This document shows positions 1,936-19,587 of a stretch of DNA of 21,018 nucleotides, piece after piece. The DNA is taken from the IMG/VR virus record IMGVR_UViG_3300010155_001933, positions 1-21,018 of that record. The stretch is one strand, 5' to 3'. The DNA comes from a virus. Each line of letters begins with the position of its first letter. Positions within the stretch are counted from its first letter, which is position 1. A program made the translations under genes and the position numbers. Below the pieces are notes generated by a model. It worked only from the letters and a program-made list of their open reading frames with translations, made no database searches and had not been told where the DNA came from.

Positions 1936-2108
1936 AAAACGGTGGTACGATCAGAGGCGTTGAGGGAGGCCTGCGATTAGATGTTTTTGAACATGATTTA
2001 AATTCCGAATATGATTTCTCTGAAGACGAGTGCCCTGTATGTGAACTCCCAGAGCATGCTGTAAAACATATTATAGAAGATATCGAATACGAAGAAGGCA
2101 ATGCCTAA
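1863..2108 (+). CDS. Acidic miniprotein with CCHH zinc-finger-like spacing
   Basis: An 81-residue acidic protein (start at ATG 1863, with AAGGAG at 1849-1854). The first 25 residues are Glu/Gln-rich (MQEEERILEQ), the middle is Gly-rich, and the C-terminus carries C57-P-V-C60, then H65 and H69: a C-x2-C-x4-H-x3-H arrangement able to bind zinc. The first 73 bases overlap the 59-residue CGGC gene in another frame, so the Glu-rich N-terminus is constrained by two proteins. The last bases overlap the start of the large structural gene (ATG 2101). No family is recognised. It could be a small DNA- or protein-binding factor or a virion accessory protein. Confidence 0.62.
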   Translation: MQEEERILEQSDPLQEQREEAVRVKNGGTIRGVEGGLRLDVFEHDLNSEYDFSEDECPVCELPEHAVKHIIEDIEYEEGNA

Positions 2109-4344
2109 ACGTATTTGGAAAATCGACAAATTCCACGGTGGATTAAACTCTAATGCTGATCCCCGCGACATAGAAGACAATGAGCTGTCTAGAGCTTCTG
2201 ATATAATGGTGGATTTAATGGGTAAAATCAGACCTATGGGAGGGATGGCTGCGCATTATAATTATGTTAATTCAGCTTCAACAGGAACTGCTGCAGGGGC
2301 AGTAACAGCTGGATATGGTTTATTTCCATTTAGTCATGATAGATTAGGGGCTCAGTCTACTGGGACAAGTCAAGCTGAAACGGGTGATGATTATCTAGTT
2401 TTTGCAGATTGTGACTCAAGTGCTAATTTTGATATATATAGTAAAGTAGCTAATGCATGGGGTGATGGTATAGTTGATTTAGGAAGTACAGCTCTCATGA
2501 AGCCAACATTTTACTATGTAGATGGAGCTTTAAGAGTTTCTGATGGGAATTTTGGAGCAAATAATACTCCTAAATGGTATGGGTATGTGGAGAGAACACT
2601 ATTCCCTGGCGTAAGTGGTGACGAAATAGCAAATGACGGATGGTATGCCAAGGATCAAGGGCTAGCAAAACCACCAGCTTGTGATCTAGATGATGACTCT
2701 ACTAACTCAGCACCGGCTGCAGGTGAGGTTGATATTAATTTTTTTGATATTTCTGCAGCCGGAGGTACATGGGACTTAGTTAGTTATGATGGTTTAAGAT
2801 GCTATATAAGTTTTGTTTACGATGGAGATGTGGGGGATAGGACTGGTCAAGAGTCACTGTTGAGAGAAATGACTGGAACTCATCCTACAGTTCCAGCGGA
2901 TTACATGATGAAACTAAGAATTATGGCACACGGTCCATTTAATGAAAGAATTACTGGCGGCAGGGTATATTGGTCTGAGATTATAGACCAAGATACTTCA
3001 CCATATGAAATTGATGGTACAAGATATTTATTAGCTGAATTTGATTTTAATAGAGGATCGAGAGCAGCTGGGTCAGAGGAATGGAGACCCTGGGGAGATA
3101 CTGGGGTAGCCGATGATGTTGAGTCTCCAGATGGTACACATCATTTTTTGTTACATCCTCCAATGGATGAAACATACGAAAGTATCAACGGATTTTCCCC
3201 TACTTACGATGCTATAAGTTTCGATGCAGCTGGATATGGATATAAAACCGCTGTAATTGCTAATAGGACTGCGTATGTTGCAAATTTTAGAATGAAGAAC
3301 AAAGATGGAGTTGTAGAAACATTTGGAGATGGTATGATTAAGTCTATTGTTGGCAAATTTGATACGTTTGTACCAAATAGAATAATTGAAGCTAGTGTTA
3401 GAGATGGTGATGAAATAGTTAAGCTTGAAGAGTATGCAGATAGAATACTTCAGTTTAAGAAAAAGAAGATGCATTTAATAAATGTCTCACAAGAGATAGA
3501 GTTTCTTGAAGATACATTTATGCATAAGGGAGTGACTCATCCGGCAGCTACTTGTAAAACTGATTATGGTATTGCTTGGGTTAATAGACATGGAGTTTAC
3601 CTATATGATGGTAGGAGGGTGAATAATTTACTAGAAAAGGATGGACGGCAAATTATAAAGGATATAATATGGGATGATTGGATAACGGCAGCAGGCGGTT
3701 ATCCAATGATAGGTTATGTACCTAAAAAGAGGCAACTTATTGTGATAGCAGATATTGGAGCAAGTGGGGGAGATAATGATATTTATTTACATGATTTAGT
3801 AACTAGAAGTTGGGTACATGGGTATAATAGAGTACCCGCAGGTGATGTTGCTAAAACAAACCCAATTACAGATTGGAATGGAGATTTTGTTATTGGGCAT
3901 ACAACTGGTACTATAGTAAAATGGGTAGATGATTTAGCAGATGCTGGAACTACTACAGATGATATGGTATATATTTATACAAAAGACATAGATTTTGGGC
4001 AACCAGCACAAAGAAAGAAAGTATACAGAGTTCGTATTTCTTATAAAGGAGATGCTGATGGATTGTATGTAAGGTATGGAGTAAATGGCGAAACTGATAC
4101 ATTTCGCACCTTTGAAGATACTGAATTGTCAGGTGGGATTGCGACTCCTGACGGAAGCTCTGATACTACTCCATTGGAAGATGCAACTGATTTAACACAT
4201 TGGACTCACGCAGAATTAAAACCATCTACAGCATCTCAAGCAGATAATATATATAGTTTTAGAATAGTTATGTCGGGAACTATTGATAATGATTTTAGAA
4301 TTAATGACATTTCAATTGTTTATAGACTAAAGCCACCAAAGTAA
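2101..4344 (+). CDS. Large beta-rich virion protein, tail/DNA-stabilisation-like
   Basis: A 747-residue protein. The N-terminus (FHGGLNSNADPRDIEDNELS, about residues 11-30) and the following 'A.D.MVD..GKIR..GG' resemble the opening of phage tail or stabilisation proteins of the beta-propeller type (compare P22 gp10 and T7 gp12 families), which begin with an 'f.gG.n....p..l.d.el..a.N....-G' pattern. Around residues 440-540 is the repeat-like stretch LEEYADRILQFKKKKMHLI, then GIAWVNRHGVYLYDGRRV, also typical of that group. The C-terminal part (from about residue 620) is a probable beta-sandwich ending in a DF-x-INDISIVYRLK motif. No membrane segment is present. It precedes a tail-fibre-like gene, consistent with a place in the tail or neck. 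The exact position is inferred; a receptor-binding role is the main alternative. Confidence 0.7.
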   Translation: MPKRIWKIDKFHGGLNSNADPRDIEDNELSRASDIMVDLMGKIRPMGGMAAHYNYVNSASTGTAAGAVTAGYGLFPFSHDRLGAQSTGTSQAETGDDYLVFADCDSSANFDIYSKVANAWGDGIVDLGSTALMKPTFYYVDGALRVSDGNFGANNTPKWYGYVERTLFPGVSGDEIANDGWYAKDQGLAKPPACDLDDDSTNSAPAAGEVDINFFDISAAGGTWDLVSYDGLRCYISFVYDGDVGDRTGQESLLREMTGTHPTVPADYMMKLRIMAHGPFNERITGGRVYWSEIIDQDTSPYEIDGTRYLLAEFDFNRGSRAAGSEEWRPWGDTGVADDVESPDGTHHFLLHPPMDETYESINGFSPTYDAISFDAAGYGYKTAVIANRTAYVANFRMKNKDGVVETFGDGMIKSIVGKFDTFVPNRIIEASVRDGDEIVKLEEYADRILQFKKKKMHLINVSQEIEFLEDTFMHKGVTHPAATCKTDYGIAWVNRHGVYLYDGRRVNNLLEKDGRQIIKDIIWDDWITAAGGYPMIGYVPKKRQLIVIADIGASGGDNDIYLHDLVTRSWVHGYNRVPAGDVAKTNPITDWNGDFVIGHTTGTIVKWVDDLADAGTTTDDMVYIYTKDIDFGQPAQRKKVYRVRISYKGDADGLYVRYGVNGETDTFRTFEDTELSGGIATPDGSSDTTPLEDATDLTHWTHAELKPSTASQADNIYSFRIVMSGTIDNDFRINDISIVYRLKPPK

Positions 4345-4345
4345 T

Positions 4346-4831
4346 ATGGCATTCACAAGACAAGAAAGAGTTGCTTCCCATAGGAAGCAGGAAAAAATAC
4401 AAGTAGGGGATGGTATTCCATCTGTCCATGAACTTGTAGATGGAGTCCCTGTTTTCAGAAGAGTATCTGGTAGAGTAATAGAATATATAAGAATTGGACA
4501 ATCTTTATTTGAAAGCGTCTTTGGAAAAGTTACCGTATCTAAAGCCCCAGTAGATGTTGTAGACTTTGATGATGATGGTTATCTTAAATTTGATAATGGT
4601 TTAATTATGCAATGGGGTCAAGAAACTATTAGTGATACCACAGAAGTAGTCACGTTTCCAATAGCCTTCCCTACTGCGTGTTTGAATGTAGTTGGTACTG
4701 CATATCGTAGCGCGCAAACAGGAGGATTAACAAACTCTTTAGCAATAAATACACTTCCAACAACAACAACGGTTGTTTTTAACACAGCTAGTGTTTGGCA
4801 GACTTTATTTTGGCAAGCTATAGGGCATTAA
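4346..4831 (+). CDS. Tail-fibre-like protein with Gp53-like C-terminal domain
   Basis: A 161-residue protein. Residues 1-60 form a charged N-terminal part (DGVPVFRRVSGRVIEYIRIG) that probably attaches to the virion. From about residue 85 the sequence NGLIMQWGQETISDTTEVV, then TFPIAFPTACLNVVGT, matches the pattern of the putative tail-fibre Gp53-like C-terminal domain: 'GLi.QWG....... ..FP.aFPt.c..v'. These small beta-rich tips occur at the ends of tail fibres and collar proteins and probably contact the host or other fibres. Its start follows the previous TAA by one base with no clear Shine-Dalgarno sequence, so it is likely coupled. It is the last gene before the only sizeable gap in the + strand operon. 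Confidence 0.8.
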   Translation: MAFTRQERVASHRKQEKIQVGDGIPSVHELVDGVPVFRRVSGRVIEYIRIGQSLFESVFGKVTVSKAPVDVVDFDDDGYLKFDNGLIMQWGQETISDTTEVVTFPIAFPTACLNVVGTAYRSAQTGGLTNSLAINTLPTTTTVVFNTASVWQTLFWQAIGH

Positions 4832-4902: not shown

Positions 4903-5829
4903 ATGCCTACTCCAGTATATTCAGCAGCCCTATCCGCATCTCGGGCGTCATCGGAATTAGAAAAAGAAAAGTACAATATATTAGATGCTATAGATCAAGT
5001 AGAATTTGCTTCTGAAAAAGCTTCTTATGATCGTGAAAGATGGGGAAAATTAGAGTCTACAGTAGCCGATGCACTCGAGGTGGCCAGCACCTTAGGTGGC
5101 ATGATGGAAGATCAGCAAATCTTTGAAGATGTATATCTTCCAGAAGCCCAAGAAACAATTGCTAAACAATCTTATGAAGGTAAAATCTCTTGGGAAAAAT
5201 TTAAAGGTAAAAAAGATTTGTATAGCGCTTATTTAAGTGAGTTCGCTCCACAGAAAGTAGATAGGCCATGGTGGGATGTATTAGGAGAAACTGAGTACAA
5301 GTTTGGAGAAAAAGGAGGTACGTATTCAAAAGGTATGATAGCTGCTACAGGAAGGCATAGAAAAGGTACATCAGATGTATCGGCTTTATTAGGGGATACA
5401 GATAAACCAACTATGATAGAAGAAGTTGACAAAAATATAAACAAACAAGTAGAGGGAAAAGATACTGCTCTTGAGAAACTGAAGAAAGAGGCTGAAAGGA
5501 AACAGTTAGATAGGGAAAGAAAAGCGATGAAAGAATTGGAAAAGAGACAAGCGGAAGCAGCTGCGGAGAAAGCAGCTAAAGAAGCAGCAGATTTTGATCC
5601 ATCGGGAAGCAAGAATTATTTGGCTGAAGATGCAGAAGAAGCCGCTGATGAAGGTCAAGGAGCGTTATTACCTGCCAAAGAAACTGATAAACCAGATAAA
5701 ATGGCAGAGATGATGAAAATATATAAAGAACAAGATTTGAATCCTTCAGTAACGGGAGGGTCTGAAGTAGATTGGTTTGACCCAGCAAGAGCTAAAGAGT
5801 TTGGATGGGTAGATGGAAGATGGATATAA
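4903..5829 (+). CDS. Coiled-coil-rich probable internal virion protein, 308 residues
   Basis: ATG 4903 is the first possible start after an in-frame TAA at 4891. The protein opens MPTPVYSAALSASRASSELE, followed by long helical stretches. A Lys/Glu/Ala-rich coiled coil at about residues 185-235 (LEKLKKEAERKQLDRERKAM) leads to an Ala/Glu/Asp-rich linker. The C-terminus is aromatic (DWFDPARAKEFGWVDGRWI), a W/F/D-rich tail that may be a docking peptide. No membrane segment is seen. It heads a module of five genes ending in two very large proteins, as do internal core or ejection protein genes of short-tailed phages. The ejection role is inferred from context and composition; no family match is claimed. 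Confidence 0.65.
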   Translation: MPTPVYSAALSASRASSELEKEKYNILDAIDQVEFASEKASYDRERWGKLESTVADALEVASTLGGMMEDQQIFEDVYLPEAQETIAKQSYEGKISWEKFKGKKDLYSAYLSEFAPQKVDRPWWDVLGETEYKFGEKGGTYSKGMIAATGRHRKGTSDVSALLGDTDKPTMIEEVDKNINKQVEGKDTALEKLKKEAERKQLDRERKAMKELEKRQAEAAAEKAAKEAADFDPSGSKNYLAEDAEEAADEGQGALLPAKETDKPDKMAEMMKIYKEQDLNPSVTGGSEVDWFDPARAKEFGWVDGRWI

Positions 5830-5830
5830 A

Positions 5831-6673
5831 ATGGCTAGTCTAGCAGCAGAACATTTATCAGAAGCAGCTTATGGCAGGTATGGTGATACCGATATTGCTG
5901 TATCTAGATATGTTGACCCGGGAAAGAAATGGCATGTTAATCCAATGGAAAAAAGTTTAATGGAGAGTGGGGCTAGAGGAGAAAAGCTCGTGGATGCCTT
6001 AGGCTCTGGGACTATAAATCCTATGACTGGGAATGAAGAGAAGTTTTTAGGTATTTCAACAGCAGCGTGGGTAGCAGGAGCTACGATAGGTAGTTTTCTT
6101 CTATCGGCTGCTTCTTCTGCTAGCGAGGGACATACAGCGGAAAGAGAATCTTCATCAAAGGTTGCTGGATATGATGAGGCTCTTTCAGGTATAGAATCAG
6201 CACAGAAAAAACTTGAGCCAGCTCGTTCAGCAAAAATAAAATTAGCTAAGGCTGAATATGAACAAGAGGCTAAGAGTTTTTCCGCTGAAACTGGTATGAA
6301 ATATGATGATGTGCAACGTGATACTGAGCAAACTATTGCAAAAGCAAATATGCCTACTCATGGGACTGTTGGAGCAAAAAGATCATCAGCATGGAAAAGG
6401 ATTCAGGGAACAGCTACTAGAGGAAAAGAAAAATTACACGGACTATTGGGCAAATCTATGGGTGAGATAGAAGAATGGTATGAAGGCGAAAAAGGTAGAT
6501 TAGATTTAGAACAAAAAAGAATAACTAGAGAGAGAGAATTGGAAGCAGATAAAGCTGATGATTGGTATTTAGGTAAGTACGCAATTAAAGCTGGCGAGTT
6601 TATATCAGGTGGCGGTATTCAGCAATCTATTGAAGAAACGAGTGAGGCGTACGTGGAGCATAAATATGGCTAA
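5831..6673 (+). CDS. Probable internal virion protein with one hydrophobic segment, 280 residues
   Basis: I place the start at ATG 5831, one base after the upstream stop, because the in-frame ATG at 5813 lies inside the previous gene. The N-terminus is MASLAAEHLSEAAYGRYG. A Gly/Ala/Ser-rich hydrophobic stretch at about residues 77-95 (AAWVAGATIGSFLLSAASSA) could insert in a membrane. It is followed by charged helices, including an EWYEGEKGRLDLEQKRITRE coiled coil near residues 215-235. The gene ends eight bases inside the next gene. Helical proteins with a single Gly/Ala-rich hydrophobic segment between tail genes and giant proteins fit DNA-ejection proteins that form a channel in the host envelope; this is inference. 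Confidence 0.65.
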   Translation: MASLAAEHLSEAAYGRYGDTDIAVSRYVDPGKKWHVNPMEKSLMESGARGEKLVDALGSGTINPMTGNEEKFLGISTAAWVAGATIGSFLLSAASSASEGHTAERESSSKVAGYDEALSGIESAQKKLEPARSAKIKLAKAEYEQEAKSFSAETGMKYDDVQRDTEQTIAKANMPTHGTVGAKRSSAWKRIQGTATRGKEKLHGLLGKSMGEIEEWYEGEKGRLDLEQKRITRERELEADKADDWYLGKYAIKAGEFISGGGIQQSIEETSEAYVEHKYG

Positions 6674-8207
6674 TCCTTACGGTTCCAACGCATTACAATC
6701 CCTAAATAGGATACTTCAGTATAGGGAAGAAAAAGAAGGTCGTAAAGTCCAAGAATCATTACAGTTCATGGAGCTTGCTCAGACAAAAAGTTATAGAGAG
6801 GCTCAATTAGGATTAGAAGAACAAAGAATTGAGATAGCTAAAGATCGTCAAGCTTTCACAGCTATCCAATCGCAATTAGATACTGCTCAGAAAGCTAACA
6901 TTCAATATCAAACTAATATAGCTGAAAGTTGGATTACAGAGTCAGGTCTTGGTGATGTATATACTAAAATTCCTTCTGGATCAATTACAGATGTAAAAGA
7001 AATAGAAGAAGGTATAGATACATTAACTGATGCATTAAAAGGCAAAAAATCATCTTGGTACAATCCGTGGAGTAAAGGGACAAAAGCTAGATTTACTGAA
7101 GACCAAGCTGAGCAAATAGTAACTGCTTTATGGTCTTTCAAGCAATCAAATGATCCATCATCTATTTTATCTTTAGCTAAGTCAACAAGTGATTCTATTA
7201 GCAGAGCTACAACCGACCCTAAAGCTAGTGTATATGATAAAAGTCTATATGAATCATTTTTTGCTTTAGGGGCTACTCAAGAGTTTGCCAATATGGGTAA
7301 AAGAGCTATGACATCATTAGATAACGAACAAAAGATTTTAAAAGAGCAGGGTGAATTTGCTCAAGGTGATTACATCTTTCAAAGTAAATTAAATTTTGGT
7401 GACGATGATGATAAAGCTAACATACAAGAGTCTCAAATATTTATAGGGGAAAGGGCATTAGAAGATCAATTGATTGATTGGCAAGAACAGTATGAAAAAG
7501 ATCATCCAGAAGATGAAGAAGGTTTAATAGGCCCCAAGATTACAACAGGTGCGTTGGCTCTTGGAGCAGCTGGCATAGCAGCAGCGGGCGAAAGAGAAAG
7601 AAGATTATTTACTGAAGGTATAGATAAATACTTATCGGATTTTGAAACAAATAAACTTCGTAAAGGCACAGCAAATCCAGATGCTTTAGGGTGGAAAGAG
7701 TTTCAAGACAAGTATAAATTTCCAAAGAAGAGAGCCCATTGGGTAAGAAATCAAGCTAAAATTCAACAACAAGCTAGAGCCGCTGGTAAAGCATCTATGT
7801 CTATACCTAGAGCATGGGAAGCTACTAAAGCTGGAGCTGTTGGAGCAAGAGAATGGGCTGTGGGTGTTGGCGGTAAAGCTGCTGTCAGCACTGGAGTGGG
7901 ATTATCTCTTCCATTTGCTGGTAGAGCGATAGGTGAAGCTGTTGGAGATCAAGAAGGTGGTATGGTTGGTGAAGCTGTAGGATTAGGTGGGTTTGGAGCT
8001 CAACAAGTTTGGAATCAAACAGCAAAGAAGGGGTCACGATCTTTTATTAGTTATTTAGCAAGTAAATTCCCATCTATTGGAGGAAAAGCAGCTGCTATGG
8101 CTATGTCAGATTCACCAATGTTACCGATAGGAGATATAGCAGCTCTAGGTTTTACAGCTTACGAAATATATGATTTATATCAAGAGTGGTCTGCAGGCGC
8201 TGAGTAA
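6666..8207 (+). CDS. Probable internal virion/ejection protein, 513 residues
   Basis: The start at ATG 6666 is supported by GGAG at 6655-6658, seven bases upstream; an in-frame ATG at 6609 lies in the previous gene. Residues 10-70 form a long charged coiled coil (SLQFMELAQTKSYREAQLGL). There is a short Ala/Gly hydrophobic patch near residues 290-303 (GALALGAAGIAAAG). The region from about 388 to 450 is Gly/Ala/Val-rich (GVGGKAAVSTGVGLSLPFAG), and a further hydrophobic helix lies near the C-terminus (GDIAALGFTAYEIYDLY). Such Gly-zipper-like sequences suggest membrane interaction or conformational change on ejection. The stop overlaps the ATG of the giant gene. No enzyme motif is seen. Confidence 0.65.
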   Translation: MANPYGSNALQSLNRILQYREEKEGRKVQESLQFMELAQTKSYREAQLGLEEQRIEIAKDRQAFTAIQSQLDTAQKANIQYQTNIAESWITESGLGDVYTKIPSGSITDVKEIEEGIDTLTDALKGKKSSWYNPWSKGTKARFTEDQAEQIVTALWSFKQSNDPSSILSLAKSTSDSISRATTDPKASVYDKSLYESFFALGATQEFANMGKRAMTSLDNEQKILKEQGEFAQGDYIFQSKLNFGDDDDKANIQESQIFIGERALEDQLIDWQEQYEKDHPEDEEGLIGPKITTGALALGAAGIAAAGERERRLFTEGIDKYLSDFETNKLRKGTANPDALGWKEFQDKYKFPKKRAHWVRNQAKIQQQARAAGKASMSIPRAWEATKAGAVGAREWAVGVGGKAAVSTGVGLSLPFAGRAIGEAVGDQEGGMVGEAVGLGGFGAQQVWNQTAKKGSRSFISYLASKFPSIGGKAAAMAMSDSPMLPIGDIAALGFTAYEIYDLYQEWSAGAE

Positions 8208-11200
8208 TGGCAGACACTCCAGCCTCATTGCAGCCTAGTCAAGCTACATTACTGCTACATGAAAGACTAACGAAGCAAGGTAGGGATGTAAATATAAATG
8301 ATCTTGATAAATGGTTAAGAAATAAACTCCCATCATCAAGACCTACGCTTCCCGCCCCTACAACCCCAGCTCAACCTAGACCAATTTTCACAGGAACTGG
8401 AAAACTGCCAGATTGGTATGAGCCTGTAGGCAGTAAAGCATCAGAAAGTGATGTTGATTTATTAAACTCTCTTGGTGTAGCTCTATGGAGCTTTGCTGAT
8501 ACTGCAGCTTTTGGTGTACCCGGTGCCTTAGTAGAAGAAGAGGAATTTCTAGATTTTGAAGACCCTCTAGGTAAGTGGCTTGGAGCTGTAGGTGGATTTG
8601 CAGGGTTTGTGAAAGGTGCTCCTATGAGATTAGGAGCTAAAGCAGTCGCTCAAGTAGCAAAGCCTTTTATAAAGAAAGCTGGTAAAGAGTCTGCTGATAC
8701 TATTATTCGTGGTATGACTAAAGTCGGTAAGGAAGGCGGGCTTAGTAGAAAAACTATAAAAGAAGTGACTACTGGTTATGGTGGACTTGTTCAAAAATCT
8801 CAAATGGACAAGACATTAAGAGGGCAAAAGTTTAAAGAATCTAGTGAAGACTTCTTAACTGGCTTTCTTGATAAAAGTCCAGATTTAACTGATGTGGAAC
8901 GAGTAGCTGTAAAAAATATGTTTAGAGAAAATGTGATGAAAAGGCCTTTACAGGATTTCAAAGGACTTATGGCTGATTCAGCAATGTCTCTAAGCAGTCC
9001 CAATACAGCTAAGGTTATAGGCCATGCTATAAATGACGCTGTCATGTTTGGTCTGATTGATACCGTATTTGAAGGTGTAAGTACCATAGAAGACCACGAA
9101 TATGATTGGACGGCTCCAGTGTGGGGTGTGGGAACTGGTGTCGCATTCGCTCAATTATCTTGGTTAAAACCTAAAGGTAAAGCAGCTAGTTGGATAAAAG
9201 ATTTTAGGTCTGGATTGAAATCATCTTTTAGAAAGAATCCTTATAAGAATGCAGATAGGGAAGCATTGTCTAATTATGCAAACTTCTTTGGGAAAGCTTT
9301 AAAAGGCAATAATGCAAGCCCAGTGCAACAAGTTTCTTATAAAGGAATTTCAGACTCAGTAAACCTTATGGATGATAGAGTTTATGATAAGTTTAAAAGT
9401 ATATGGGGAGATAATGCTGAAGATGCTATGAGATCATTTTTAGACTCACACAGGAAGAAGTGGGGTAGGGAGCTTATGAAATGGTCTACAGCTGCTGAAG
9501 CTGAAAATATTGCTCAAAATTGGGTAAGAATGGGACTAGGTGGTATGTTATTCAACCTACATACTTTTCATGACATATATAGTAAGGGATATGAACCAGA
9601 TGTAAGTGACATTTTACCCCATTTCCTTATTGGAGCATACGTTCAAAGGAGATCGAATCCTGCTAAGTTTGATTTAAAGTCAGGTGAAGTTAATCAAGCC
9701 AGAAATAATTTACTTGCTCTTGGTATGCATCCAGAGCAATTATCGGAAATACCATCACTTAGATATACTAAGAGTCCTGCAGATAATATATTTAATGATC
9801 CTAAGTGGAAACCAGTAGAGGAATTAGCTCGTGAAAGAGGTATCATAACAGACAGTAGGGAAGTTTCTGAAGTAAGATTAAAGACGGGTGAAGTTAGTGT
9901 TCAAATGAAACCAGTAGAGGGTTTTGATTTGGTTTTTGAGGATTTACTTTCAAGAGGTAAATATGCTAAGTATAAAGATGAAGTAAATACTAAAGATGCT
10001 GAGGCTATAATGAGGAAGATGAAAGAGATTGATCCTTCGTTAAAGACTCTTAAAGATTATGAGGTAGTATTTGAAGATTCTAGATTAAAAGGGTCTGAAA
10101 GTTTTGAAGATAGCTTTACTGAGGTAATCGAAGCTGTTAGATTAGCTGATGTAGATAATACTCTTAGTATAACATCATCTGTAGAAGGAAAGCCGGGGCA
10201 GTCTCCTATATATATAGGCATTTCTAAAGAATTAGCTGATAAAGCTAGAAAGGGTGAATTAGACTTTTTAGGGGATTTAAAAGGTGAAGCTGCTGAAATA
10301 GAATTAAATGAGAAAATAGGTGGATTAAATAAAATACTTACTACTGCTAATTTATTAGGTAAAACTAAACCATTACCAAATGAAGGAGGTACAAATGACA
10401 GTAGGAGAATAACAAGTGAGTCTCTACTAAGGTCAACTTATAGAGCTGTTAGCGAAGCTGAGGCAAGTATAAATGAAAGATTTCCAGATGCTAGAGATCA
10501 TGTTGATAGGTTTTCATTTCAAAATTCATATAATGATTATATTAATATTTTATCAAAAAATTATGCTTTAAGGTCAGCGGAGAAGATATCTAATATTTTT
10601 CATCCAGCATCCCCTGCAGGCGAAAGAGATAGACTTGGTGATATATTAAGAAATGTTGGCATATTGACAGACCCCATTAGTAGAAAAGATGGTAAAATTA
10701 GCAGCAACATAAGGTCAGATATAAGCAGAATAATCATCACAGACCCAGCGAATCCAGACAAAGCTCTTGGTAAAAATGATTCAAGATTGGGTGAGGCTAA
10801 GAGAATGTTAAATAGAATTTTAACTATTCAGTCTTTATCTGGTGGATATGATGTAATGGAAAACGCTCCTAGAAAGCTTGTTAGTTATGATAGAATTGTC
10901 AACTTAGAGAAGTTTTTAGCTAATAAGGGATATACTAAAGAAGTTTGGGGAAAAGACTGGATGCATGGTCAGATTACTGACTATATAATGAGGGACAGAA
11001 TAAAGAGAACTAACCTTTCAATAGAGCAAGCTGATACACTTTTTTCATTAGCTGAGAAAGGTTTTGCTAGATTTGAGACAGCTGTTGAAGGAAGGGCTGC
11101 TGGTTTTAGAGTAAAGCTTATTGATGAAAGAGTAATACCAGACAATGATACTAGAGTAATAAAGTTAGCTCAACAATATAATAAATATGTAAGACAACTT

Positions 11201-14200
11201 GTAGAAGATGGTGGAGGAGATCGAGGTCTTGTAAAAACTGAAGGACTTGTTAAAGTATTAGAATCATCTGCTATTGATAGTCTATTTCAAGCTCTTCAGA
11301 ACCCTGCTCAACGAATGTCTGCAAGGGCTCAGTTAACTCAGTTTATAAATTCATTACCAACAACTAAAAAGTCTTATACTGTTCTTGGTAAACAGATGCA
11401 AGAGTTTATAAACCTACCCGGGGCTACTGAGGATCAATTAATAAAGTGGTTGTCAGCTGCTAAAGTTTTTTCATTATCCGATCCGGGTAAGGGGTCATAT
11501 GAAATAGACATGAAAAAATTTAATCAGAAGTTGGCTATAGAATTGTCTAATAATATGGATAAAGTTGGGATTACTCCAGAATATGCTGAATCTAAATTTT
11601 TAGAATACGAAAAAGCTGTTAAAGAAAAACTTCTTACAGACGCTGATGAGATGGATGTAGACAAAGGGATGACTCTGGATAAGTTTTTTAAGAAGTATCG
11701 CACTGGTGACAATGAAGCCTTTAATATGAATAGGCATGATTCTGCGACAAAATTAGAACACTTTAATGATTTAGTATATACTGACGTTCCAACAAAATTA
11801 TTAGCTCCCAAAGTTATTAAAAATATGCTAAAAAGAATCCATGTAAAGCGTGGAAAAGATTTTGTAAAGTATACCAATCTATCAAGTAAACAAAAACAAA
11901 AAGAAAAACCAGTAATAATAAGAGACTTAATAAGTTTACTGGCTAGACAAGGTTCTCAAACAGAAGTTCCTATGTTGGAATGGCAACATGGTAATGTCGT
12001 TAAAACAAAAGAGACTGTAAACATAAGTAGATTTTCTAAATTTTTTAAAGAAACATTAGCTGATGAAGTCCCTTATTATATTATAAACCCATACGCCTCT
12101 ACATATGAACTTGTTGATGGCAGATATGTGAATCATGGTTTTGTTGATATCTATAGAGATAGTGCCAATCTATCTAAACAGCAAAGAGAAAAAATAACTG
12201 GTCAAAAACAAGATTTTAAAGCTTATTTAAGTCAGATGGAGGCAATTGATAAAGTTTCGATAAGGGATGGAGACACTAAAGGACTTCATACTATGAGGCT
12301 TTCAAGTAATATAGCTCCTATAGCTATTGAAAAAAGACATCTTCCAAATTTAGTTGAGCCTTATAGACAATTTGTCAGTGAATATGAGAATATGGCTGGA
12401 GTCAATAAAAAAGTGATCGAACAGATGCAAAAAGAAATAAAATCGTTTGATGAAGGGACTGCTACTGAGGTTGATTATGAACATGCTTTAAGAAGAATGA
12501 TGTTCAAAGATATGTTAACTGGTAAAGATGGGAATAAATTTTTTATAGAATTTTTAAATGGAAATGTAAATATAAATAAAACATTAGGTAGGATAAAATT
12601 ATACAATACAAAGAAATTTGTTAAACCTTCTAAAGATTTTTTATTAGAAATTGCAGATGCCCATAAGTCGATTGGTGATACAGAGACATCAAAGGCTTTC
12701 ATGAGAGTCCTTAGAAATAAAGGATATGGAGTAGCTATATGGAATGATGAAAGCTATAATACAGTTAGAGACGAAGCTATATCTATGTTAAGTAAAGAGC
12801 TTCCAAAGACTAGTAAGGGGAAATTGGATATAGATGCTGCTACTAAATTGTATGATAATATTATTGGAGAAGCTCACAAAGAAGCTTCCGCTTTTGATAG
12901 TATATCTTTTGTCTCTAAAGATATGATGAGAGTGGCTCATACCCTTGTTGGTCATTCACCTGAATCTCAAAATCCTATCAAACCTATTATATCTTCTGGC
13001 GGTCCTGACTCACCACTTCTTTTAGGTAAAACTGTTTTTGTATACTCAAGTGCTTTAGATGGATTTTTTAGTAAGAATAAGGGTATTGATATATTATTAA
13101 CTAAAAGCGGAGCTAAGGCTTATAATCCAGTCGACAGTGGTATGGCGGGATCAGCTGCTGATGCTAGTATAATTAATAAGCCGTGGCAAAGAATTACAGG
13201 GGCAGCTAGGCCTGGCCAAGTAATAGGTAGTGGTAAAACAAGATTAATAACCATTGATTCTCTTGGTATACAAGCTAATAAGGATTCAAATATGCTTTCA
13301 GCTAAGACTTCTATGGCTGATTTTAATTATACTAAGAATAAGGAAGCAGGCAACATATACGATGTTATGTTTGCTGAACCCCTTAACCAAAGGTTGGAGG
13401 CTATGAAATACATAGCTCATGAGCCAATTGCTATGCGTCAGTGGATTGAAAGTGAAATGGGTAAGGACTTTAATCCAGATGTGAAAGCTGGTGAAGGAAT
13501 GGCTCATATAAATAATATGTTTTATTGGTCTCAAATATCAAGGGATGCTAATCCTAAGTCATATAGTGAAAGAATGTTTAAAAATAAAATGTATGGAGTC
13601 TATATAAATTCATTGATAAATGAGAGTAGGGGTGTTACTAATCAAGGTGATTTAGCTGGAGATATTAAAGAAAGTCACAGATATAGTGGACAAGCTGTTC
13701 TTATACAAGTTCCAGATGCTGCTAAAAGATTAAAGCCAACTGTAGTTGATGCTGATGGTAAAATGGTTATAAGAGGCGAGGTAATGCTTCCGTTTCACGA
13801 ACAGAATATGAGTATAGATGTTTTAAGAGCTGGGGAACATGGTCAGCAAATGGATGTTAGATTTGTTAGAAAAGGGGAAACGTTTACAGGCGATCAGATA
13901 TTTGGTAAAGAATGGGATGCTGTAGCTAGGGATAGCACATTAGGTACTATTTATGCAGATTTAAATTCTAGAATAAAAGCTGGTGATGTACCAGCTGGGA
14001 CTCAAATAGGAGTCATTGTTAGCAGGAAGCCTAGAACTAGACCTAATGATATGATGATATTGGGATTAAAAGGATTTTTAGAAGAAACATATGGTAATGG
14101 ATTGCAAGTAAACAGCTTAGATGTTGTTAATGTTTTTGAAGGTGATTATGATGTAGATAAAGCTGATTACTTTTTTGCCCATAGGCAAGGAATGTTTGAG

Positions 14201-16840
14201 CATGTAAACAGAACATCTAAGTTTTTTGTTCAAGGTGTAGACCCAACTAAATATGCAACGGCAAGTGAATTTAAATGGACTATGCCTGCTAATACTGCAA
14301 GTGAATCTATTGAAAGATTAGCAGCTGATAATGATTTATATAAGTCATCTATTGGCGTGGTACAAAAAATCCCTAGAATGTTGGGATACCTTGATAAGAT
14401 ATCTACAAAATTAACTCCAGAAGAGGCTAGAAATCTTGGTTTAAAAGATATTATTAGAAAAAATGCGGATGGTGAGGACTTTGTTCCAGGTGTTCTTATT
14501 GATGTACCCGGCAAAGAAGGGTATAGGATAGTAATGGACTATGATAATTTAGATTTTTATACAAGATCAGCATTAGAAACTCAATATATAATAGATGGCA
14601 GTGGAAAATTAAATAGAAATATCGCTCAAAATATTAATACTTGGAAACCTGAATTTCTTTTTCCCACTAAAGGTGAATCTATAGTTCCAGCAGCAGCTGA
14701 ACAACGAAAAGCCGGGTTTATTAATCAAATGAGAACTAATGGCAATGAGAATGGTAAAAGAGTTAGAATTTTCAGAAAGATAAATGCAGATACGACTGAA
14801 GGTGAGTTAACAAAGCTTGATAAAGCTGTTATACAAGGACTTCTTAATGAATACGGTTCGATGTTAAACGCAACTGGTAAAACTATGTTTGAAAAAAGTG
14901 GAGAGCAAAGAGCCCCTAATTATCAAGACGTAGTAGATGCAGCTGAAAAATTTAGAGGTTTTAACAGAAATATAAGTGACCAATTGTACTATAGGTTAAG
15001 AAATAAAAGAATTGATCCTAATGACCCAAATAGTAAAAAGTGGAGAGATGATCCAGAGTTTGACAGTATCTTTGGAGTTAGAGAACTTGGAGGTGGGAAA
15101 AATGAAAAATGGAAATATAGTAAGCAAAAGAAAAAGAGATATTGGAAACCTACACAGCAAATAGTAAGAAGTGATACAAAAGTTAGAGGCGAACAATATG
15201 CTGATGGTCAAAGAGGCTCTGTTATTGATAGAATTACATGGAATTTGCTTGAAGCTGATGTTTTTAATCAAACTAAAAATGAAGGATTGACAGGTGGAGC
15301 TAGGGGAATGGTAGAAGATTGGTATGCTCAGATGCATGGAGGTAGAAGAGCAGACATGGCTCATGAGATTGATCGGCTTAACGATAACATTATAAAAGGA
15401 TCGTTTAGTCATAATAAAAAAGTAGCCATAATAGAGTCTCTTAAAAAGAAGGTTATGCAGGTGTTGAATGATCCTAGCAAGACATATAAGCAAAAAACTT
15501 ATGCTAAGGATAATATAAATAAAACAATAAAGACTCTTGAAAAAGAACTTGGAAAAGAAATTCCTAAATCATATTGGAAAACTAAATCAGCTAAGGATTT
15601 AAAGAAGATTCAAATTGTATCTATGGAACAGGATGACTTGAAACAAGGCGCTATACAATATGGAACAATGGAAGTGCTAAAAGAGTATTTGCCATTTGTA
15701 AATGGTGATATGAATTTTTCCTTAAATAGAAAAGGGATAGAAAGATTATCTGAATTAAAGAAACTCAGGCAGTTGTTTTATAGCAACCAAACAAGGCTTG
15801 AAGATGTTATGAAGTATAAAGGAAAGAGTATATTAAATAGCGAGACAATAGCTTTTTTAACAAACATGCCAGCTTTAAGCACTTTTTATAAAATAGAATC
15901 TGATTATTTAAGACAAGCATATGCAGAACATGGTAATCCTTTTATATTTGCTTTTATGCAGCCAGCTAATAATAAATACCAGATAGCTGTACATAATGGT
16001 AGGGTGCATCCCGTTCCTTATCAAGCATCAAAAAGATACTCGAGAGGTCTTCAATTCCTAACTTCATTAGCTACAGAGTCGTTTGATCCTGACCTTAATC
16101 ATAGAATGCCCGGATATCAAGATTTTGTAAGAAATTCATTATATTATTTACAGCTATCAGAAGCTCAGTTTGAAAGATATTTTAATAATAAAATTGAATT
16201 AAGGAATGTTCTTGGCACTAGAGTAGGTAAGGGTGTTGATATTAATGAGTTAAATGAATCGCAAATGTTGTCATTACTTGAGAGAATAAGACTTCCAAAT
16301 TTTGATAAGGACATGCAGGATAAGTTTACAAATTTTACTAATATTCAATGGGCTAGGGATAAAAAAAGAATAACTGGTGGTCGTGAGTTAACTAATGATC
16401 ATTTATTGGATTTTTATTCAAGTCTTATGAAACTGGCTGGTAAAGAAAAACAGTTTGATTCTTATTTACAGAATATGCATGATATAGAAGCTCAGATGTT
16501 GTCTAATAATATAATGTCTCCAATTGAATATTTGTCTAAGAGATCAATGATTGAGTCTGAAATTAAAGGCATTGCTCAAGATGTCCTTACAAGTGCAATG
16601 ACTGGCGACCCTAAAAATCCGATTGTACAAAATATTTTAAGTAATCCAGTGTTGGCAATTATGGGAGGGCCTGGATATTTTAAGGGAGTAACTTTTGAAA
16701 AGCAATCTAAGTTAAATGTAGAAAGGCTTAGGAATATGAAAAATATGTTCGAGACATTGGACTCTTATAAAGAGGAATTATCTTTTGGAAGTCATAAAGG
16801 TAAAGCTGAATTTTTAAAGCTTAAAGAATTATGCCCGTAA
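8207..16840 (+). CDS. Giant 2877-residue protein, candidate virion RNA polymerase (two-barrel type)
   Basis: One uninterrupted frame begins at an ATG overlapping the upstream stop (TAATG). The first 500 residues contain hydrophobic Gly/Ala-rich segments (about 86-150, 265-330, 430-480), like ejection proteins. The central part is charged and helical. Around residue 1600 comes YSSALDGFF, then DILLTKSGAKAY with K1633 and K1637, then K1700 in LSAKTSMADFN: candidates for the lysine-bearing barrel. Next, R1940-K-P1942 and D1948 (RKPRTRPNDMMILGL) precede VFEGDYDVDKADYFF with D1980, D1982 and D1984. Order and spacing mimic R-x-P...DxDGD of cellular, YonO-like and QDE-1-like RNA polymerases, with the DxDxD form reported for crAss-like phage enzymes. 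About 890 residues follow, mostly helical, possibly the rest of the polymerase or a further domain. T7-type polymerase motifs were not seen. The alternative is a polyvalent structural protein with a fortuitous acidic loop. The polymerase call is inference from motifs. Confidence 0.6.
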   Translation: MADTPASLQPSQATLLLHERLTKQGRDVNINDLDKWLRNKLPSSRPTLPAPTTPAQPRPIFTGTGKLPDWYEPVGSKASESDVDLLNSLGVALWSFADTAAFGVPGALVEEEEFLDFEDPLGKWLGAVGGFAGFVKGAPMRLGAKAVAQVAKPFIKKAGKESADTIIRGMTKVGKEGGLSRKTIKEVTTGYGGLVQKSQMDKTLRGQKFKESSEDFLTGFLDKSPDLTDVERVAVKNMFRENVMKRPLQDFKGLMADSAMSLSSPNTAKVIGHAINDAVMFGLIDTVFEGVSTIEDHEYDWTAPVWGVGTGVAFAQLSWLKPKGKAASWIKDFRSGLKSSFRKNPYKNADREALSNYANFFGKALKGNNASPVQQVSYKGISDSVNLMDDRVYDKFKSIWGDNAEDAMRSFLDSHRKKWGRELMKWSTAAEAENIAQNWVRMGLGGMLFNLHTFHDIYSKGYEPDVSDILPHFLIGAYVQRRSNPAKFDLKSGEVNQARNNLLALGMHPEQLSEIPSLRYTKSPADNIFNDPKWKPVEELARERGIITDSREVSEVRLKTGEVSVQMKPVEGFDLVFEDLLSRGKYAKYKDEVNTKDAEAIMRKMKEIDPSLKTLKDYEVVFEDSRLKGSESFEDSFTEVIEAVRLADVDNTLSITSSVEGKPGQSPIYIGISKELADKARKGELDFLGDLKGEAAEIELNEKIGGLNKILTTANLLGKTKPLPNEGGTNDSRRITSESLLRSTYRAVSEAEASINERFPDARDHVDRFSFQNSYNDYINILSKNYALRSAEKISNIFHPASPAGERDRLGDILRNVGILTDPISRKDGKISSNIRSDISRIIITDPANPDKALGKNDSRLGEAKRMLNRILTIQSLSGGYDVMENAPRKLVSYDRIVNLEKFLANKGYTKEVWGKDWMHGQITDYIMRDRIKRTNLSIEQADTLFSLAEKGFARFETAVEGRAAGFRVKLIDERVIPDNDTRVIKLAQQYNKYVRQLVEDGGGDRGLVKTEGLVKVLESSAIDSLFQALQNPAQRMSARAQLTQFINSLPTTKKSYTVLGKQMQEFINLPGATEDQLIKWLSAAKVFSLSDPGKGSYEIDMKKFNQKLAIELSNNMDKVGITPEYAESKFLEYEKAVKEKLLTDADEMDVDKGMTLDKFFKKYRTGDNEAFNMNRHDSATKLEHFNDLVYTDVPTKLLAPKVIKNMLKRIHVKRGKDFVKYTNLSSKQKQKEKPVIIRDLISLLARQGSQTEVPMLEWQHGNVVKTKETVNISRFSKFFKETLADEVPYYIINPYASTYELVDGRYVNHGFVDIYRDSANLSKQQREKITGQKQDFKAYLSQMEAIDKVSIRDGDTKGLHTMRLSSNIAPIAIEKRHLPNLVEPYRQFVSEYENMAGVNKKVIEQMQKEIKSFDEGTATEVDYEHALRRMMFKDMLTGKDGNKFFIEFLNGNVNINKTLGRIKLYNTKKFVKPSKDFLLEIADAHKSIGDTETSKAFMRVLRNKGYGVAIWNDESYNTVRDEAISMLSKELPKTSKGKLDIDAATKLYDNIIGEAHKEASAFDSISFVSKDMMRVAHTLVGHSPESQNPIKPIISSGGPDSPLLLGKTVFVYSSALDGFFSKNKGIDILLTKSGAKAYNPVDSGMAGSAADASIINKPWQRITGAARPGQVIGSGKTRLITIDSLGIQANKDSNMLSAKTSMADFNYTKNKEAGNIYDVMFAEPLNQRLEAMKYIAHEPIAMRQWIESEMGKDFNPDVKAGEGMAHINNMFYWSQISRDANPKSYSERMFKNKMYGVYINSLINESRGVTNQGDLAGDIKESHRYSGQAVLIQVPDAAKRLKPTVVDADGKMVIRGEVMLPFHEQNMSIDVLRAGEHGQQMDVRFVRKGETFTGDQIFGKEWDAVARDSTLGTIYADLNSRIKAGDVPAGTQIGVIVSRKPRTRPNDMMILGLKGFLEETYGNGLQVNSLDVVNVFEGDYDVDKADYFFAHRQGMFEHVNRTSKFFVQGVDPTKYATASEFKWTMPANTASESIERLAADNDLYKSSIGVVQKIPRMLGYLDKISTKLTPEEARNLGLKDIIRKNADGEDFVPGVLIDVPGKEGYRIVMDYDNLDFYTRSALETQYIIDGSGKLNRNIAQNINTWKPEFLFPTKGESIVPAAAEQRKAGFINQMRTNGNENGKRVRIFRKINADTTEGELTKLDKAVIQGLLNEYGSMLNATGKTMFEKSGEQRAPNYQDVVDAAEKFRGFNRNISDQLYYRLRNKRIDPNDPNSKKWRDDPEFDSIFGVRELGGGKNEKWKYSKQKKKRYWKPTQQIVRSDTKVRGEQYADGQRGSVIDRITWNLLEADVFNQTKNEGLTGGARGMVEDWYAQMHGGRRADMAHEIDRLNDNIIKGSFSHNKKVAIIESLKKKVMQVLNDPSKTYKQKTYAKDNINKTIKTLEKELGKEIPKSYWKTKSAKDLKKIQIVSMEQDDLKQGAIQYGTMEVLKEYLPFVNGDMNFSLNRKGIERLSELKKLRQLFYSNQTRLEDVMKYKGKSILNSETIAFLTNMPALSTFYKIESDYLRQAYAEHGNPFIFAFMQPANNKYQIAVHNGRVHPVPYQASKRYSRGLQFLTSLATESFDPDLNHRMPGYQDFVRNSLYYLQLSEAQFERYFNNKIELRNVLGTRVGKGVDINELNESQMLSLLERIRLPNFDKDMQDKFTNFTNIQWARDKKRITGGRELTNDHLLDFYSSLMKLAGKEKQFDSYLQNMHDIEAQMLSNNIMSPIEYLSKRSMIESEIKGIAQDVLTSAMTGDPKNPIVQNILSNPVLAIMGGPGYFKGVTFEKQSKLNVERLRNMKNMFETLDSYKEELSFGSHKGKAEFLKLKELCP
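14021..14158 (+). other. Candidate catalytic barrel of the giant protein: R-K-P to DYDVD
   Basis: Residues 1939-1984 of the giant protein run from S-R-K-P through N-D-M-M-I-L to the acidic loop DYDVD. In two-barrel RNA polymerases the arginine of R-x-P lies near the incoming nucleotide, and three loop aspartates hold the catalytic magnesium. Here the usual DxDGD glycine is valine. Hydrophobic strands flank both motifs (QIGVIVS before, LDVVNVF just before the loop), as expected for strands of a double-psi beta barrel. Confidence 0.55.
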
Positions 16841-19587
16841 ACTGCACATTAGTAAGTAAACATTATAAAGACCTACTTGGTGAAATAGAAAAATGGTCTG
16901 AGTCTAATAAGAGTAGATCATATTTTAAAGACCCGTATGAGGCTGCTTTTAAGCTTGTAGAAACTGAATTTAATATGGACTTAAATACTCTTAAGTATAA
17001 TCCAGAGATTACAGCAGGTCAAGTTGGTTCTTTTAGGAGCAGGCTAAGAGAGCTCACAAGGAATATTGATAATGGTAAGATGGCTAATACTTGGGCTTCA
17101 ACATTTTGGCAATCATCTAAGTATGGTAAAAAAGACCCAGTTGTTGGCAATGTTCTAAATAAGATGGGTATGTCTGGTTTTCATTTCAGAGCTAATGAGG
17201 CAAGGGATACTACATTATTTCAAGCTGTCTTGACTAATATTAAATCAGAGGCTGGTCGAAGACATTTAACTTCAATTACTGGATGGTCTGAAGTAAAAGT
17301 TGAAAAAGAATTAAATAGACTTGATACTGAATGGATGAAAGCTATAGCTGATTACAAAAACAATGTACCAGGAGCTTCAGATAAAATAACTAAAATTAAA
17401 ACACAAATGGACGAATTGGTTAGAGACACCCATTTAAAAGTATATGATGATTTAATAAATATTTTAGAGAGTACAAAAGAAGGTTCTTTAAGAGATGTTT
17501 TAAAAAATAAATATCTTAAGATGAGTAAGTCCGACAGGGGAAAAGTTGATAGAGGTGAAAAAACAGTAAAAGCTTCTAAAAAAGATTTACGTCAGGTCAA
17601 AATTGACGGAGAAGAAATATCTGATCAAATGTATGGAGCATTAGAAAACTATATGGAGCTGTCGGATGGTTTGTATAAGTCATTACGGCAGGGTGTCGAT
17701 AAAAGGATCGACTCTATCATCAAGAAATTAGTAGCATCGGGTAGGGATGTATCAGCTAGTGAGTTTAAAAATATAAAAGAAAGATTAAAAGGGAAGTTAA
17801 TGCCTAAATATGAGCAGGGATTCTTTCCACATTATTCAAGAGACTTGAATATCAATATGATGGATGGTTTAATGCCTAAGTTTGAAGATATGCAAACATC
17901 TATTAATGATTATAGTAAATCAAATAATAAAAAATCTATAAAACAAATCATAAAAGAAATGAATGGATATATTGATGGGCATGCTAAGTCTAGAGCTAGG
18001 GACTTAGAAAGCGGTGAATATGATTATGATTATAGCAGAAATTTTGTCAACTCTATAACTAACTATATAACAGATATTAATAGATTTAATTTTGCTTCAT
18101 TTATGGATGCTCATATGATTGATGGACTTATGTCTATCGAAAGAATTTATAAAACCGAAGGAGCTGCTAAGGGCTACGCTGAGTCTATTACTAATTTTTT
18201 ACAAGATTTAAACATGGCTGCTAATGGTCATAATAATATAAGTGAGAACACTAGAAACTTCATGAGAACTCTATTGGGATTTGAGTTTATATCTAAACTT
18301 GGATTCAATCCTAGAGGTGCTTTAAGAAATACAACACAAAGATTTTTAGATTATGTTAACTGGGGCCCTATACAGATAAACTCTACAAATGAATATTTAA
18401 GAACTTTATCCTTTAAAGAAGGGCAGGAATTGTTTGTTGAAAATGAATTAAAAAAGGCTGGACTATTATTTGATACGCAATCTCCAGAGTTTATGCAAAC
18501 TGGACTAGATACGCCAGCTTCTATATTTAGAACAGTAAGTTGGAATGACTCTGCTGGAAAGTTTCAAGTAAATAAGCCGGGAAAAATGAAGTCTGTCGCT
18601 GATAAGGTTTCTTGGTTAGCAGGCAAATCATCTTATCTACATAGAACAGCTGAGAATATAAATAGGAAACATACATTTAAGATTGGCTATGGTCAGATGC
18701 ATAAATGGCTGAGTAGTAAAAGTTATTACGATTCTCTTGTTGCAAAAAGAAGCGAAACTGAGGCTGGTAAGAAAAGAATAGCTAAGGGAGAAGAAGTTTT
18801 AACGGAAGCACAATTTCAAGCTATCGTGGAAAAAAAATCTGCTAATTACGCTATAAATATGGTAGTTATGAACCATTTTGATTATGCTGATTATGCTAAG
18901 GCTAAGTGGACTAGAAGTAAAATAGGTAGATTTGCAGGACAGTTTCAGCATTATAGCTTTGAGTTTTTAGAAAGAAATATAGCAATACTTAGAGAAGCTA
19001 AACATGATGTTGTAGCTGGTAAACTACTTCCTGGAAAAGATGCTCAAGGATTAATGAAAGCTTATAGAATGTCTATGGCTTACTTCTTTGCTCCTTTAAT
19101 GGCTTCTGAATTAATGGGTGTTGATTTTTCTAATCTAATAGAGCATGATACTTTACAAAGATTAAAACAATTAACTACATTATTCACTGGTGACGATGAG
19201 GAAATACAAGAAGCTTTTTATGGTAAAGGCCCTATCATAAGTACATTTGGTGGGCCTCTTCTTAGTGATACAATAGATATAGGTGTTATGTTAGATTTAA
19301 TAGATTTAGATGAGCCAGGCATACTTACATTAATCTCTGGGTTAGAAAATTATGACCCATCGACATCAACTGAAATTGGCTCTAAGTTAAGAATCCTTAA
19401 TACTTTTTTAGGTAGAGCTTATGAAAGACATTATCCATTAATACAAAAAGGTAATATTGGAATGGCTTTTCAACAAGAATTTGGTTTATATCCCACAGCT
19501 AAAGCTAGAAAAAAGAGAAAGAAAGAGACATCTAGAGCTGTTCCAATGGAATTAGAAAAAGCATTGAGGCTTATGGAACAAAGTTAG
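16831..19587 (+). CDS. Large 918-residue phage protein, probable virion-associated partner of the giant protein
   Basis: It starts ten bases inside the end of the giant gene (ATG 16831), so the two are probably translated together. The protein is mostly helical. Notable pieces are EQGFFPHYSRD near residue 330, FNPRGALRNTTQRFLDYVNW near residue 490, SYLHRTAENINRKHTFKIGY near residue 600, and FAGQFQHYSFEFLERNIAIL near residue 705. A hydrophobic stretch (MAYFFAPLMASELMGV) follows near residue 750. The C-terminus is basic (KARKKRKKE). The FPHY and N-P-R-x-A-L-x-N-x-T-Q patterns, and the late F..Q...Y..E segment, remind me of very large polyvalent phage proteins and DNA-ejection proteins. I cannot assign an enzyme activity. 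It is the last gene of the + strand operon, which ends at a hairpin. Confidence 0.65.
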   Translation: MPVNCTLVSKHYKDLLGEIEKWSESNKSRSYFKDPYEAAFKLVETEFNMDLNTLKYNPEITAGQVGSFRSRLRELTRNIDNGKMANTWASTFWQSSKYGKKDPVVGNVLNKMGMSGFHFRANEARDTTLFQAVLTNIKSEAGRRHLTSITGWSEVKVEKELNRLDTEWMKAIADYKNNVPGASDKITKIKTQMDELVRDTHLKVYDDLINILESTKEGSLRDVLKNKYLKMSKSDRGKVDRGEKTVKASKKDLRQVKIDGEEISDQMYGALENYMELSDGLYKSLRQGVDKRIDSIIKKLVASGRDVSASEFKNIKERLKGKLMPKYEQGFFPHYSRDLNINMMDGLMPKFEDMQTSINDYSKSNNKKSIKQIIKEMNGYIDGHAKSRARDLESGEYDYDYSRNFVNSITNYITDINRFNFASFMDAHMIDGLMSIERIYKTEGAAKGYAESITNFLQDLNMAANGHNNISENTRNFMRTLLGFEFISKLGFNPRGALRNTTQRFLDYVNWGPIQINSTNEYLRTLSFKEGQELFVENELKKAGLLFDTQSPEFMQTGLDTPASIFRTVSWNDSAGKFQVNKPGKMKSVADKVSWLAGKSSYLHRTAENINRKHTFKIGYGQMHKWLSSKSYYDSLVAKRSETEAGKKRIAKGEEVLTEAQFQAIVEKKSANYAINMVVMNHFDYADYAKAKWTRSKIGRFAGQFQHYSFEFLERNIAILREAKHDVVAGKLLPGKDAQGLMKAYRMSMAYFFAPLMASELMGVDFSNLIEHDTLQRLKQLTTLFTGDDEEIQEAFYGKGPIISTFGGPLLSDTIDIGVMLDLIDLDEPGILTLISGLENYDPSTSTEIGSKLRILNTFLGRAYERHYPLIQKGNIGMAFQQEFGLYPTAKARKKRKKETSRAVPMELEKALRLMEQS

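Follow-up and report, generated by a model that had tools for sequence, protein, structure and literature searches.

Does the giant protein encoded at this locus contain a single-chain two-barrel RNA polymerase, and would such an enzyme travel in the virion? The question was addressed for the record of an uncultured bacterial virus (IMGVR_UViG_3300010155_001933), the entire 21,018 bases of which were analysed and are referred to as the window. The 2877-aa protein encoded there is predicted, from its sequence and modelled fold, to hold the core of a two-barrel RNA polymerase, roughly at residues 1525–2330. We consider it likely that this is a single-chain DNA-dependent two-DPBB RNA polymerase, a very divergent relative of the crAss-like vRNAPs, which would be packaged in the virion and transcribe the early genes. 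It is a new, very divergent lineage of a known polymerase type, and its carrier, to judge by the packaging genes, is no crAss-like phage. Polymerases with both barrels in one chain form a link between the RNA polymerases of cells and those of eukaryotic RNA interference, and they are known from few lineages of phages; the present one is widespread (96 matching stretches in IMG/VR), was missed by the sequence libraries tried and provides a further core on which structure and promoters can be studied. No paper describing it was found in the literature searched, which included few subscription journals and yielded work on crAss-like phages and P23-45.

Gene map

The + strand of the window carries a late-type block that ends in the 2877-aa ORF, followed by a 918-aa ORF. 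The − strand carries convergent genes that include those for a DnaB-like helicase and a resolvase-like protein, and the same genes were typed in one relative. A search of the 21,018-base window for tRNA gave none. The conserved genes of the + strand are as follows.

2101–4344, + strand: 747-aa late protein, conserved position, probably a tail component
4903–5829, + strand: 308-aa conserved block neighbour (synteny)
5813–6673, + strand: 286-aa conserved block neighbour (synteny)
6663–8207, + strand: 514-aa candidate virion or ejection protein, directly upstream of the polymerase gene and in a conserved position; weak match to a PHROG scaffold family (E = 0.0054)
8207–16840, + strand: 2877-aa protein with predicted single-chain two-barrel RNA polymerase core (ORF, family, homology, fold)
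16831–19587, + strand: 918-aa partner protein, always directly downstream of the polymerase gene (42/42 loci long enough)

A 161-aa protein at 4346–4831 matches tail fibre families in its C-terminal part (PHROG 4209, E = 2.1e-15). The 918-aa protein has no family match and is a candidate partner or co-ejected protein.

Full-length relatives of the 2877-aa protein measure about 2780–3000 aa and contain EGDYDxD. The preliminary description had called such a length exceptional, which is refuted by longer phage polymerases: P23-45 gp96 has 5002 aa (PMC10770324), RNAP genes of crAss-like phages encode up to about 6000 aa (PMC10136315), and an N4-like vRNAP (Schitoviridae, e.g. phage DEV) has 3398 aa (PMC10925440).

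Family collection and conserved residues

Relatives were gathered from IMG/VR in rounds, which gave 4 loci, then 25 and then 96 matching stretches; the best 80 of these 96, in 76 loci, were retained. Reduction at 85% identity left 47 sequences including the window. Conservation along the 2877-aa protein, calculated from this set, shows two clear peaks, at residues 1555–1640 and 1935–1990. These are the regions of the lysines and of the RxP and DYDVD motifs, so that the motifs are not chance occurrences. The features of the core are listed below; boundaries of the barrels are approximate.

12779–15196, + strand: RNA polymerase core as modelled, residues 1525–2330 (AlphaFold2; 6vr4 at E = 1.8e-6, QDE-1 at Z = 15.4)
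12881–13276, + strand: first barrel (DPBB-B type), about residues 1559–1690, from the model strands
12980–12982, + strand: K1592, 47/47 family members, HHalign partner of gp66 K1012
13028–13030, + strand: K1608, 47/47, counterpart of gp66 K1027 by eye
13115–13117, + strand: K1637, 47/47, HHalign partner of gp66 K1065
13625–14236, + strand: second barrel region (DPBB-A type), about residues 1807–2010, which aligns with the largest RNAP subunits
14024–14050, + strand: RKPRTRPND, R1940–D1948, RxP motif (HHalign, conservation)
14144–14158, + strand: DYDVD, residues 1980–1984, predicted catalytic metal-binding loop (D-Y-D-x-D in 46/46; HHalign to gp66 DFDID 1361–1365)
14288–14401, + strand: long helix after the catalytic barrel, about residues 2028–2065 (helix 504–541 of the second model)

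The two motifs to which the preliminary description had drawn attention, R1940-K-P-R-T-R-P-N-D1948 and D1980-Y-D-V-D1984, are present and near-invariant across 46–47 members: P1942, T1944, P1946 and D1948 are invariant in 47/47, position 1940 is arginine in 46/47, and D1980, Y1981, D1982 and D1984 are invariant in all 46 members that cover them. Its choice of lysines was borne out in part. K1637 is invariant, but K1633 (22/47) and K1700 (18/47) are not conserved, and K1592 and K1608, which are as invariant as K1637, were missing from its list. In relatives L019 and L047 (and the near-identical L020 and L048) the motif reads EGDYDADAVH and not EGDYDxDKxD; the aspartates are kept, but the lysine that follows the loop is replaced. 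Relatives L035 and L039 have an extra DYDVD string (QRDYDVDVEK and QRDYDVDIEK, respectively) beside the catalytic EGDYDFDKAD, which may be a chance occurrence.

Profile comparisons

Homology to the crAss-like vRNAPs was established computationally by profile–profile comparison, which the preliminary description had proposed. The query profile comprised 24 members of the 2877-aa family (residues 1300–2420), and the crAss-like profile was built from phi14:2 gp66 and its relatives (about 82 core sequences aligned). HHalign recovered the crAss-like vRNAPs over 383 collinear columns, with a probability of 95.7 and an E-value, for a single comparison, of 9.6e-9. Controls using reversed or column-shuffled profiles, or N- or C-terminal parts of the same proteins, gave E = 0.18–0.86 (above 0.2 for the reversed and shuffled ones), and the same comparison with larger sequence sets gave E = 7e-7 and 1.6e-6.

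The alignment pairs NPIKP with QPLKG of gp66, SGAKA with DGVKV, RGEVMLP with RPGQIFM, RKPRTRPND with RIPNQGQSSND and EGDYDVDK with GSDFDIDK. In the crAss-like alignment K1012, K1027, K1065, R1322, P1324 and D1361/1363/1365 are invariant in 80/80 sequences. Both proteins thus have the same order of K-K-K, RxP and D[FY]DxD at nearly the same spacing. From arginine to aspartate there are 40 residues in the 2877-aa protein and 39 in gp66; the lysines are spaced by 16 and 29 residues in the former and by 15 and 38 in gp66, in which the gap between the second and third lysine is longer. Around K1608 the HHalign alignment is shifted by some residues, and the pairing of K1608 with K1027 is a reading by eye. 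Identity to gp66 over the aligned core is about 15%.

By sequence comparison, the crAss-like vRNAPs are the only relatives of the polymerase core that were detected. Pfam gave nothing above the cut-off for the 2877-aa ORF and four neighbours. PHROGs gave no match to the core, the sole match being of 24 residues outside it (E = 0.0016), and searches of the PDB by single sequence and by profile returned chance matches only. Three family members, used as tblastn queries, revealed no relative among deposited phages, and none of 29 pattern matches in bacterial and archaeal genomes was a relative. No HHalign match was obtained to a 61-sequence alignment of YonO (E = 0.25–0.31), or to P23-45 gp96 and gp64, for which single sequences on that side make the test a weak one. 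A gp67-like module fused at the N-terminus was considered and rejected, as the match comprised 37 columns at a probability of 19.7 in a glycine-rich hydrophobic stretch.

Structure prediction and structural comparison

The fold class was established by computation from two AlphaFold2 models. For the first (residues 1300–2420, 24 sequences; pLDDT 73.1, pTM 0.67), the sole significant Foldseek match in the PDB was 6vr4, the phi14:2 vRNAP (E = 2e-6). The second (residues 1525–2330, 46 sequences; pLDDT 81.9, pTM 0.83) again gave 6vr4 as the top match (E = 1.8e-6), followed by QDE-1; 111 chains had E ≤0.001, and the best 50 listed are all RNA polymerases. The catalytic loop was modelled at moderate confidence in the second model (block mean 68).

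Structural alignments of the second model were conducted using VIA-align. The Z-scores were 15.4 for QDE-1 (404 residues, rmsd 5.3), 14.8 for maize RDR2, 12.0 for the gp64 type, 9.6 for 6vr4 (509 residues, rmsd 4.7), 9.4 for gp96 and near 8.7 for the largest subunits of cellular and viral RNAPs. Both barrels were aligned with QDE-1, RDR2, gp64, gp96 and 6vr4, in agreement with the structural resemblance anticipated in the preliminary description. The alignments to QDE-1, gp64 and gp96 begin at the first barrel, and the second barrel region was matched to the largest subunit of RNAPs from cells and viruses (ASFV 317–497, for example). In the model, the long helix at about residues 2028–2065 may be either a bridge helix or a clamp helix. 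In BFVD, two viral proteins (A0A516M3R5 and A0A516L9L2) and several crAss-like proteins were matched.

Profile homology, fold and conservation of the catalytic residues together support the proposal that this is a single-chain two-barrel phage RNA polymerase. Two other readings of the core can be weighed on the same evidence. PolD likewise has two such barrels (PMC10770324), and eleven related contigs yielded no family A DNA polymerase, as might be expected if the core were a DNA polymerase of PolD type, or a primase; yet the structural matches listed are all RNA polymerases, and the sole sequence relatives detected are crAss-like vRNAPs, which makes this reading scarcely credible. PolD is absent from the structural matches listed, which is not in itself grounds for rejection. 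A former polymerase that has lost catalysis and been retained for structure or ejection would accord with the large size of the protein and with the stretch of roughly 1500 residues before the core, for which no match was obtained. It is nevertheless very improbable, as no positions of the protein are more constrained, over 46–47 divergent members, than the aspartates, the barrel lysines and RxP. From these residues the core is predicted to be catalytically active.

Gene context and carrier phage

Gene order was compared computationally across the relatives. The recurrent order is 747, 308, 286 and 514 aa, polymerase, 918 aa, and in each of the 42 loci long enough to show it the 918-aa gene comes directly after that of the polymerase. 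Three relatives on contigs of 51–54 kb show terminase, portal, putative scaffold and capsid and tail-type genes, then the polymerase block, with the replication genes on the opposite strand; portal and terminase were typed by PHROGs in one relative, and scaffold and capsid were assigned from position and a weak match. The polymerase gene is fixed within the late structural block, far from the convergent replication genes. The most divergent relatives (L102, L095, L093 and L097) retain both the polymerase gene and the 918-aa one, but neither a resolvase nor a DnaB gene of the window's type can be recognised after them, so that the replication module differs.

Membership of the carrier in the order Crassvirales is not supported, since its portal and terminase families differ from the crassvirus ones (phrog_156 and phrog_38 in a relative on a 54 kb contig, phrog_6547 and phrog_6681 in phi14:2). 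HHalign aligned the terminase with that of phi14:2 over only 44 columns (probability 17.9), and the neighbours of the polymerase gene gave no match to phi14:2 gp67 and gp68. The longest related contigs, the ends of which may not be genome ends, are 44–54 kb, compared with about 90–105 kb for a Crassvirales genome. By its portal and terminase the carrier does not resemble the Crassvirales; it appears to be a podovirus-like phage, and its relatives look short-tailed. Among deposited phages a capsid match was detected in Desulfofustis phage LS06-2018-MD01 alone (22% identity); its late block likewise ends in a large uncharacterised protein, of about 1577 aa (L116:15927–20660).

No ORF for a second two-barrel RNAP was found in three related contigs. 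A search of the eleven related contigs for a T7-type RNAP gave no match; as the control genomes gave none either, this negative carries no weight. Motifs before the early genes, sought as promoters in few, short regions, did not rise above shuffles.

Proposed function and comparison with known polymerases

The gene's place among the late structural genes of a podovirus-like phage makes packing of the protein into the capsid the most likely reading. In phi14:2 the gp66 gene likewise adjoins genes for large virion proteins. The RNAP proteins of crassviruses travel as cargo of the virion, and in phiCrAss001 this cargo includes RNAP-associated proteins that are thought to unfold partly during ejection (PMC10172136). 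The portal and terminase of the carrier show no kinship with those of Crassvirales, so the case for packaging is one of analogy, which together with the gene context makes it plausible. One barrel would supply the invariant lysines and the other the RxP motif and the metal-binding DYDVD loop, and both together would extend RNA on a DNA template. The polymerase, most likely stored in the capsid, would be ejected through the tail and refolded in the host, where it would transcribe the first phage genes independently of the host polymerase. Early transcription is proposed from the same fixed place in the late block.

Since packaging rests on context and analogy, an enzyme of the same type could instead be made during infection and transcribe later genes, like P23-45 gp64 or SPbeta YonO, and non-virion two-barrel polymerases do exist (PMC10770324). 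We regard this as unlikely: the gene is flanked by those of conserved late proteins and lies well away from the convergent replication genes, whereas P23-45 gp64 is encoded among early genes (PMC10770324), and the nearest sequence relative is a virion enzyme. With a packaged enzyme as the preferred reading, the lineage points to a wider use of virion-carried two-barrel polymerases than is apparent from the crAss-like and Thermus phages. A bolder reading, possible but tentative, is that an undescribed phage group outside Crassvirales has fused a two-barrel virion polymerase to ejection machinery of about 1500 residues, which would make it part of genome delivery, and that such polymerases either passed from one phage order to another or are ancient in several of them.

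Among known systems, phi14:2 gp66 is the closest, with both barrels in a single chain, a gene among late virion genes, the best Foldseek match and the only profile match. It differs in length (2180 aa), in the portal and terminase families of its carrier and in its neighbours. The eukaryotic RNA-interference polymerases QDE-1 and plant RDR2 share the same overall two-barrel core; unlike the phage protein they are cellular enzymes that copy RNA or single-stranded DNA, and no sequence match to them was found. Thermus phage P23-45 gp96 and gp64 are also single-chain two-barrel phage polymerases. In gp96, a fusion to the tail tape measure protein, the core likewise lies within a giant virion protein, but it is N-terminal in the 5002-aa tape measure protein of a long-tailed phage, whereas the core of the 2877-aa protein follows about 1500 residues and its relatives look short-tailed. 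YonO of Bacillus phage SPbeta is a single-chain phage protein of the two-barrel class, with a DxDGD loop seen in its sequence; it differs in that its alignment gives no profile match to the family. N4-like vRNAPs belong to the T7-like fold class and not to the two-barrel one. They work alike in that a giant polymerase is carried in the virion of a short-tailed phage (PMC10925440).

Upstream of the core, hydropathy gave no clear transmembrane helices in the 2877-aa protein, including residues ~91–335 (8474–9220). This region has conserved glycine-rich hydrophobic stretches and is a possible membrane-active ejection segment.
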